Shown here piece by piece: positions 23,600-25,225 of a stretch of 42,012 bases of DNA (position 1 is its first letter; each line of letters opens with the position of its first letter). Location: NCBI GenBank assembly GCA_035541015.1, contig DATLFM010000075.1, positions 1 to 42,012 on the forward strand, written 5' to 3'. Below the pieces are notes generated by a model, which searched no databases, was not told where the DNA came from, and saw only the letters and a program-made list of their open reading frames with translations. Source of the DNA: Candidatus Thermoplasmatota archaeon. GTDB taxonomy: Archaea; Thermoplasmatota; SW-10-69-26; JACQPN01; JAIVGT01. The position numbers and the translations under genes were made by a program.

Positions 23600-23602
23600 A
23601 AG

Positions 23603-23677
23603 TGCTCCCGCCGGGATTTGAACCCGAGTCGCAGGCTCGAAAGGCCAGCATGATTGACCGGACTACACTACGGGAGC
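23603..23677 (-). tRNA. tRNA-Glu (TTC)
   Basis: A 75-nt cloverleaf: acceptor GCTCCCG/CGGGAGC (7 bp), anticodon loop CTTTCGA giving anticodon TTC, T loop TTCAAAT and discriminator A. The anticodon stem (CTGGC/GCCTG) carries a U-U mismatch at its second pair, which is unusual. No intron and no encoded CCA. It is followed by a 10-bp hairpin and by duplicated copies of its own 3' end. Confidence 0.94.
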
Positions 23678-23993
23678 ATGGGGTGGGGGGAGTAGAGGGG
23701 GGAGGGCCCGAAAGCCCTCCCCCCTCTTCCCTCCGCGAACGCAATCGGCACCGTCTCGCGCGCGCCTTCGCGGTCCACCGTTCGAACTCGCGCACGACGG
23801 GCGGCCGATTAAGCCTTTTCGTCGGTGGGTCGAGCGGCCGCCGCGCGGGAAGTTAGGCGGCGGGCGCCCGACGCGAGGACCGCCGAAGGCAGGCCGAGCG
23901 AGGGCGGGCATCGCCGCCTTTGGATGACAACCTTTTCAGCGAGGCGGCCGCGAAGCACCCAGGGCGAGCGGCCGCCGAGCGGGAAAGGTTTCA
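23678..23993. other. Gene-free spacer between tRNA-Glu and tRNA-Ser
   Basis: This 316-base stretch holds one clear element, the perfect hairpin at 23694-23727 upstream of tRNA-Glu. The remainder is GC-rich, with scattered short A/T spots (GATTAAGCCTTTTC near 23810, GATGACAACCTTTT near 23925). I see no convincing open frame, repeat or RNA in it. Confidence 0.6.
23694..23727. other. Perfect 14-bp hairpin with CCGAAA loop, 5' of tRNA-Glu
   Basis: AGAGGGGGGAGGGC pairs perfectly with GCCCTCCCCCCTCT around loop CCGAAA (TTTCGG on the transcribed strand). Its near edge lies 17 nt from the 5' end of tRNA-Glu, where the archaeal promoter would be expected. An equivalent element precedes tRNA-Ser. Confidence 0.7.
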
Positions 23994-24079
23994 CGCGCAC
24001 GGCAGGATTTGAACCTGCGCCGGACGTGAGCCCGAGTAGATCTCGAGTCTACCGCCGTGGACCGCTTGGCTACGTGCGC
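23994..24079 (-). tRNA. tRNA-Ser (CGA)
   Basis: An 86-nt class II tRNA with a long variable arm: acceptor GCGCACG/CGTGCGC (7 bp), anticodon stem GTAGA/TCTAC with loop CTCGAGA giving anticodon CGA, T stem GCAGG/CCTGC and discriminator G, as expected for serine. No intron. It reads toward tRNA-Glu, about 316 nt away. Confidence 0.95.
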
Positions 24080-24093
24080 ATGGAAGGGGGAGC

Positions 24094-24125
24094 CCGAGGG
24101 GGAAGGCCGAAACCTTCCCCCTCGG
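24094..24125. other. Perfect 13-bp hairpin with CCGAAA loop, 5' of tRNA-Ser
   Basis: CCGAGGGGGAAGG pairs perfectly with CCTTCCCCCTCGG around loop CCGAAA, identical to the loop of the hairpin at 23694-23727. Its near edge is 15 nt upstream of the tRNA-Ser 5' end, at the position where a promoter should sit. Confidence 0.7.
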
Positions 24126-24175
24126 TTCCTCCAAAGTCGAACCAACCGGGGTACGTTCGTCCCGGGAGCGAAGCC

Positions 24176-24184
24176 GTATTTTGG
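24176..24184 (+). promoter_or_regulatory. TATA-like box for the ubiquitin-like/methyltransferase gene
   Basis: GTATTTTGG lies 22-30 nt upstream of the GTG at 24206, the usual spacing for a leaderless archaeal message. This supports that start codon, which has no Shine-Dalgarno site. Confidence 0.5.
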
Positions 24185-24205
24185 GGGTCCTCCATAACCC
24201 CTTCG

Positions 24206-25225
24206 GTGTCCACGGTCCGGGTGCGATGGAGGAGGCTGGGGCCCGATCGGGGACAAGGGGAGGTCACGCTGCCCGCAGGCGCGCGCGTGGAGGACGTCCT
24301 GCGGGCGGTGGGCGACCATCCCGAGACCGTGCTTGCGGCCCTGGACGGCGTCGTCGTGCCGCACGACACGCCCATGGCCGACGGCGACGAGCTTCAGATC
24401 ACGCGCGTCGTCACGGGCGGATCGGCGGACGTGCGGCGGGCCTTCCACGCGACCCTGGAAGACCTGCCCGCGCTTGTTTCCCGCACGAAGGGGACGCAAA
24501 TGGCCTACCGCCGCCTGGCCGACGAGCTTGCGCTCGATCACGCGGACAACCTCCGCAACCCACACGATTGGGCCATCTACGCATTCCATGCCGGCCTCGT
24601 CGCGCGGCTCGTTCCCGGCCAAGGTCGCGTGCTCGACTGGGGCGGGTACTACGGCCACGTGACCGCCACGTTGCACGCGCTTGGGGTCCGCGGCGCCGCG
24701 AACTATCTGCTGCACGTCCCGCCGCGCTACGAACCCGTCGCGCAGAAGCTTGCCATCCCAACCCTCCTCGGAAGCGATCCAAACCGTCTCTCCGTGCCCG
24801 ACGCAAGCCAGGACGCCTGGATCTCCTCGGGCGTCTTCGAACACGTCTGGGAGGACGGCGTGGGCGACGAGGCGACCATCCTCGCCGACGTCTTCCGCGT
24901 CCTGCGCCCGGGCGGCCTCGCGTTCCTCTGGAACCTGCCCACCACCTTTGCCCCTGGCGACCTTGCGGGCAAGGTGCGCGGGCGCTGGTACCACGAACGG
25001 CGCTTTGGCGCCAGGGAGATACGGTCCTTGCTGCAGGCGGCCGGCTTCTCCGTGCTTGCGCACTGGCGATACGGCGGCACGCCGCTTGGGCTCCTCCTCA
25101 AGCGCCTCGCAGCCGACCCGGCGCGAACGTTCCAGTGGGATCGCGCGGCCGCGAGCCTTCCTCCGCTCGGCTGGGCCGCCAACAACCACGCGCTCGTGGC
25201 GCGGAAGCCATCCACCGCCGATTGA
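24206..25225 (+). CDS. Ubiquitin-like (ThiS/MoaD/SAMP-type) domain fused to a class I methyltransferase
   Basis: The roughly 339-residue product has two parts. Residues 1-72 read as a beta-grasp ubiquitin-like domain: a first strand 'VRVRWRRLG', 'VTLPAGARVEDVLRAVG', then 'DGVVVPHDTPMADGDELQI' and a terminal VVTGG (Gly71-Gly72), the pattern of ThiS, MoaD and archaeal SAMP modifiers. The frame continues without a stop into a SAM-dependent methyltransferase, with motif I VLDWGGYYGH (about 142-151) and 'DAWISSGVFEHVW' and 'DVFRVLRPGGLAFLWNLP' further on. The GTG at 24206 is supported by a TATA-like box; 24221 is an alternative. The methyl acceptor is unknown. Whether the Gly-Gly end is released by cleavage is speculation. 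Confidence 0.8.
   Translation: MSTVRVRWRRLGPDRGQGEVTLPAGARVEDVLRAVGDHPETVLAALDGVVVPHDTPMADGDELQITRVVTGGSADVRRAFHATLEDLPALVSRTKGTQMAYRRLADELALDHADNLRNPHDWAIYAFHAGLVARLVPGQGRVLDWGGYYGHVTATLHALGVRGAANYLLHVPPRYEPVAQKLAIPTLLGSDPNRLSVPDASQDAWISSGVFEHVWEDGVGDEATILADVFRVLRPGGLAFLWNLPTTFAPGDLAGKVRGRWYHERRFGAREIRSLLQAAGFSVLAHWRYGGTPLGLLLKRLAADPARTFQWDRAAASLPPLGWAANNHALVARKPSTAD

Follow-up and report, generated by a model that had tools for sequence, protein, structure and literature searches.

Within the window, by which we mean the whole 42,012-nucleotide stretch of archaeal DNA that we analysed, one gene encodes a SAMP2/ThiS-type sulfur carrier and modifier joined in frame to a class I methyltransferase. 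On the comparisons made here, this is a lineage-specific stop-loss fusion, found in one genome. The best explanation, and in our judgment a probable one, is that the encoded protein is a linear precursor that a JAMM peptidase would cut between Gly72 and Ser73. The initial annotation had described a single uninterrupted frame in which a domain ending in VVTGG at residue 72 precedes a class I methyltransferase, and both translation and Pfam searches bear this out. The locus contains the following features.

23602-23677, minus strand: tRNA-Glu(UUC), on the other side of the modifier gene from its position in two relatives (G002 and G005), where it is downstream and shares the strand of that gene.
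23993-24080, minus strand: tRNA-Ser(CGA), divergent and directly upstream of the fusion ORF, the conserved neighbour that identifies the ortholog.
24206-25225, plus strand: the whole fusion ORF, 339 amino acids and a stop, starting at GTG 24206 or, more probably, at GTG 24215.
24206-24421, plus strand: SAMP2/ThiS-type beta-grasp domain, residues 1-72, with the end V-V-T-G-G, assigned by Pfam, phmmer and the family profile.
24416-24424, plus strand: Gly71-Gly72 and Ser73, the predicted peptidase cut (by comparison with MoaX), with TCG where most orthologs have a stop.
24422-25222, plus strand: divergent class I methyltransferase, residues 73-339, with an N-terminal helical part, a motif I-like VLDWGGYYGHVT and a conserved core at 178-240.
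24431-24502, plus strand: possible internal methyltransferase starts, GTG 24431 (V76) and ATG 24500 (M99), proposed from the sequence alone.

The ORF on the plus strand forms one continuous coding frame without interruption. Its start is probably the second of the two GTG codons, which aligns with the ATG of the ortholog from the same family. Across the linker, G+C at the three codon positions is 0.73/0.54/0.85, and the third-position pattern keeps the same frame from one side of the junction to the other; codon usage through the junction likewise favours the fusion frame. A frameshift or out-of-frame artefact at this point is disfavoured by the continuous codon-position signal. The junction is present once in the 114-contig assembly, with no alternative copy. 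Because stretches of 26 codons are free of stops in 76% of random-frame stretches of this GC-rich DNA, an open linker of 26 codons is common by chance, and the informative point is the stop missing directly after the diglycine. The candidate start at M99 is preceded by AAGGGG. As 267 residues follow the diglycine, the encoded protein lacks the C-terminal diglycine of SAMP2/ThiS carriers, although this end could be regained after cleavage.

The identity of the first domain is well supported at the level of the sequence family. Residues 17-72 match the Pfam models ThiS (32.5 bits, cut-off 22.5) and SAMP2 (28.9, cut-off 27), as the initial annotation had anticipated for a profile search. The NCBIfam SAMP2 equivalog model gave 24.8, far under its cut-off of 70, which places the domain in the SAMP2 family but not among close SAMP2 equivalogs. 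Its best solved relatives are SAMP2 (5lda_B, phmmer E 2e-7) and PF1061, with an alignment that reaches the terminal Gly-Gly. Against a family profile built from 19 sequences, itself among them, the window domain scores 91 bits, near the top of the phylum list. VVTGG occupies residues 68-72 and aligns with the termini of 18 relatives; in the 19 aligned sequences G72 is invariant and G71 is conserved in at least 90%, which answers the question, raised in the initial annotation, of whether Gly-Gly is conserved. The structure prediction that the same annotation had proposed added little: a model from a three-row alignment was poor (pLDDT 44.6), the AF2 model of the 72-residue domain alone was of low confidence (pLDDT 59.2), and a Foldseek search of the PDB with the latter gave no significant match. 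The beta-grasp fold is predicted from the sequence family.

We then compared the gene with its orthologs. With the profile of 19 relatives, the SAMP2-like family was detected in 321 of the 390 phylum genomes, almost always as a single gene, and no second copy of it was found in the genome of the window. The nearest relative, from the same family, is a free-standing protein of 69 amino acids, 61% identical, that ends in VVTGG and a stop. Including this relative, 65 of 70 orthologs have their stop immediately after the diglycine, four extend briefly past it (by 3, 8, 11 and 16 residues), and the window gene alone runs into another domain. The 70 loci are the best matches together with loci that have long open frames rather than a random draw, so that the sampling, if anything, favours finding tails. 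Outside the window gene, tails were concentrated in its class (three of five orthologs, versus 1 of 64 outside; Fisher p 7e-4 without the window gene). One ortholog with an open frame of 305 amino acids (G109) was considered as a second fusion and set aside, its frame being open upstream only and stopping at Gly-Gly.

A divergent tRNA-Ser(CGA) lies directly upstream in 45 of the 70 orthologous loci, window included. This shared neighbour marks the window gene as a syntenic ortholog, and the fused state therefore as derived. The position of tRNA-Glu on the opposite side from that in G002 and G005 suggests a local rearrangement at the window locus. The divergent pair of tRNA-Ser(CGA) and SAMP2-like gene (23993-24421 in the window) is kept across much of the phylum, often with tRNA-Glu on the other side.

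The same fusion, which the initial annotation expected to be sought in related genomes, was absent from all 69 other orthologs, and the phylum searches lead us to reject a conserved fusion. That annotation had also held that a stop between the two domains in other strains would speak against the fusion. Such a stop does lie at the diglycine in 65 of 70 orthologs, but those genomes have no methyltransferase beside the modifier gene, so the objection applies only in part.

The methyltransferase part of the protein is divergent. Residues 178-240 match Methyltransf_11 (28.4 bits, cut-off 21.2), and other Methyltransf models stayed below their cut-offs. The motif I-like stretch is unusual, falls outside the region matched by the profile, and is poorly modelled. 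Searching with the methyltransferase part (METHYLTRANSFERASE), we found no relative at E 1e-8 in the 389 other genomes of the phylum and none among phages and viral contigs. Plasmids gave one partial match, on a Nocardia plasmid (37%), and a scan of genome contigs returned just two matches, at 28% identity, both to general methyltransferases from Salinivirgaceae. The searches thus gave no useful match that would indicate a viral, phage or plasmid origin. Since no close relative exists in the collections searched, the methyltransferase was most likely either acquired from outside or greatly diverged. Together with the diglycine end of most orthologs, this lack of a close relative is what points to a lineage-specific stop-loss fusion.

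Searching the genome itself for the ThiS family revealed four loci, none of which ends at the diglycine: a MoaD-MoaE fusion, a MoaD-MoeB-rhodanese fusion, a MoaD with a 27-residue tail, and the window gene. MoaD-MoaE and MoaD-E1 fusions also occur in relatives from the class. Four genes match Prok-JAB, and the three examined retain an intact E...HSHP...S..D motif; one JAMM gene directly adjoins the MoaD-MoeB fusion gene. The genome also encodes a TtuA/NcsA-like PP-loop enzyme with flanking cysteine pairs.

Several of these loci are of interest in their own right. The MoaD-MoaE protein (L027, contig C97) carries VSGG three times at or after the end of MoaD and before MoaE (PPVSGGAG, EPVSGGAA, RAVSGGAP), possibly as repeated cleavage sites. 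The tail of the MoaD-like protein (L044, contig C40) is SGTGLNFWNRLILRKYYNAGHLNRFDR; in G002, a relative from the same order, the gene stops at Gly-Gly. A eukaryote-like ubiquitin gene cluster (L134, contig C45, 422-3193, minus strand) encodes a RING-like zinc finger protein (below the Pfam cut-off), an E1 (ThiF, 152 bits), an ubiquitin-like protein of 85 amino acids ending in PEGG followed by RRGATE, and an E2 (UQ_con, 51 bits, with an HPN motif and a cysteine); a JAB-like fragment lies at the contig end. E2 (UQ_con) genes were present in 24 of 60 phylum genomes (for example L139-L144), 23 of them over the Pfam cut-off, and in none of 14 control genomes. Ubiquitin-type conjugation may therefore be widespread in this archaeal phylum.

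How would such a protein work? We propose that, in this lineage, loss of the stop codon let the gene for the genome's single SAMP2/ThiS-type carrier and modifier run on in frame into that of a methyltransferase, which had been either acquired or relocated. One of the cell's JAMM/MPN+ peptidases would cut after Gly72 (Gly-Gly/Ser), freeing two proteins. The first would be an ordinary SAMP2-like protein whose diglycine is free; an E1-like MoeB/UbaA homolog would adenylate it, and it would donate sulfur to a tRNA thiolase of the TtuA/NcsA type and possibly also modify proteins. The second would be a separate methyltransferase starting at Ser73. The sequence itself establishes the fusion, the diglycine and the orthology, and that the genome has E1, rhodanese, JAMM and TtuA-like genes; we infer the cleavage, the peptidase responsible, the role in tRNA thiolation and the methyltransferase activity by analogy with published precedents.

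Several such precedents are published. The MoaD-MoaE fusion of Mycobacterium tuberculosis, MoaX, is cut at Gly82/Ser83 and is inactive if uncut (PMC4326299). In vitro, HvJAMM1 cleaves a SAMP1-MoaE fusion exactly behind the Gly, and the fusion depends on this peptidase for its activity in vivo (PMC4443979). DRJAMM cuts the natural Deinococcus MoaD-MoaE fusion (PMC8832034), and CsJAMM cuts tailed SAMP precursors (PMC6043591). Thiolation of tRNA in Haloferax is the joint work of UbaA, SAMP2 and NcsA (PMC4048286). It is the precedents of MoaX, SAMP1-MoaE and CsJAMM that make a precursor cut at Gly72/Ser73 the best explanation. The 65 orthologs that end at Gly-Gly indicate that the normal product has a free diglycine, and since the genome has no second copy of the family, a function that needs this end would require cleavage, unless another carrier substitutes. 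The initial annotation had left three readings side by side (a cleavable precursor, a self-tagging methyltransferase, and a carrier domain presenting a thiocarboxylate or substrate to the enzyme); the JAMM genes with intact motifs and the extension of all four ThiS-family domains past Gly-Gly lead us to favour the first. Against it stand the single fragmented assembly from which the fusion is known, the fact that in the best precedents the fused partner (MoaE, MoeB) acts with the carrier, and a functional link between SAMP2 and methyltransferase that is not apparent. Moreover, sulfur could come from the three other ThiS-family proteins, which leaves the need for cleavage unproven.

The same three proteins also bear on an unlikely but reasonable alternative, in which drift removed the stop, the protein remains uncleaved and keeps the beta-grasp domain as a passive appendage at its N-terminus, and sulfur is transferred by other MoaD/ThiS-like proteins of the genome. 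That the fusion is a singleton among 70 orthologs fits such a stable chimera, and the small tails past Gly-Gly in related genera suggest that the constraint on the terminus is relaxed in the class. Against this reading, VVTGG and the family residues are intact, with a 91-bit score against a profile that includes the window sequence itself, and the genome encodes JAMM peptidases.

Quite improbable, in our estimate, is a sequencing or assembly error, whether a substitution or indel that removed the true stop or a wrong joining of two genes; the genome would then encode an ordinary SAMP2, with the methyltransferase as a protein of its own whose translation perhaps begins at ATG 24500 or GTG 24431. 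The junction comes from one contig of a 114-contig assembly and is seen in one genome only, TCG is one substitution away from TAG, and a stop-free linker is unsurprising in this DNA. Against an error stand a codon-position signal that continues in the same frame on either side of the junction, and a junction present without an alternative copy. The idea that the SAMP2 domain, left uncut, directs the methyltransferase to a target such as tRNA or the E1/TtuA complex, with Gly-Gly acting unreleased, is highly improbable despite the recurrence of ubiquitin-like fusions to partner enzymes (taken up below) and the linkage of archaeal ubiquitin-like genes to tRNA modification, as by established E1 chemistry a glycine inside a chain can be neither adenylated nor thiocarboxylated unless cleavage frees it, the fusion is conserved in none of the 69 other orthologs, and the methyltransferase has no assigned substrate.

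If the precursor is indeed cut, it would be a naturally occurring archaeal case in which a SAMP-type modifier is followed by a complete enzyme unrelated to it, much like the eukaryotic fusions of ubiquitin with ribosomal proteins, and a simple test case for the processing of linear SAMP fusions by JAMM. One could go further and suppose that the fusion is itself functional: a carrier for tRNA thiolation would be made solely as a methyltransferase-tied precursor, and the JAMM cut would equalise carrier and enzyme of the same RNA- or protein-modification step. We consider this decidedly doubtful; if true, the passenger behind this ubiquitin-like precursor would be of a new type, and the genome would be one that makes all its ThiS-family proteins as precursors. 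More generally, the finding that none of the four ThiS-family proteins ends at the diglycine suggests that some archaeal lineages rely on precursor processing for sulfur transfer. We regard the architecture as real and unusual, confined to a single genome and lineage-specific; the main risk, as we see it, is that a single assembly is its basis and that the cut itself is predicted.

How does the window protein compare with known systems? With the SAMP2/PF1061 family (Haloferax SAMP2; PDB 5lda, 1rws) its first domain shares sequence family, length and the V-x-G-G end; known members end at the diglycine, whereas the window protein continues for 267 residues. Fusions of ubiquitin-like (Ubl) proteins to partner enzymes are recurrent (PMC1779556, PMC2948915). 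MoaD-MoeB and Ubl-Cgi121 fusions have been published for archaea, and the archaeal MoaD-MoeB(-rhodanese) and Ubl-Cgi121 proteins are, like ours, natural fusions in which a beta-grasp carrier is joined to an enzyme or to a subunit of a complex; their partners differ, and the accessible parts of these reports contain no methyltransferase fusion (PMC11237513, PMC2948915). Nor did we find a ThiS/SAMP-methyltransferase fusion described in the openly accessible literature, subscription papers lying outside the search.

Precursors of SAMP and ubiquitin in Caldiarchaeum subterraneum also carry residues past Gly-Gly, which CsJAMM or CsRpn11 removes, and the window genome resembles that organism in having both JAMM proteins and an ubiquitin-like gene cluster; the tail of CsUb is nine residues long, while that of the window protein is a whole enzyme (PMC6043591). 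With the SAMP1-MoaE/HvJAMM1 pair of Haloferax it has in common an archaeal SAMP, an internal Gly-Gly and JAMM/MPN+ as the (here predicted) processing enzyme, but SAMP1-MoaE is engineered and of the SAMP1 type, and the window fusion natural and of the SAMP2 type. MoaX likewise has an N-terminal MoaD/ThiS-like domain, an internal Gly-Gly followed by Ser, and an enzyme fused behind. Instead of a methyltransferase it carries MoaE, the enzyme that partners the carrier in catalysis, and its cut after the second Gly is shown where ours is just predicted. Two features of the MoaX type, the internal Gly-Gly between carrier and enzyme and a JAMM/MPN+ peptidase in the genome, are present in the window case, and conservation of the fusion in related genomes is absent. 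The earlier statement that no system of this shape had been described was therefore too strong, as fusions of the form Ubl-Gly-Gly-enzyme that need to be cut after the diglycine have been published (PMC4326299, PMC4443979, PMC8832034). Only the methyltransferase partner was absent from the literature searched; the fusion adds this partner to an arrangement already known and does not amount to a new type of system.
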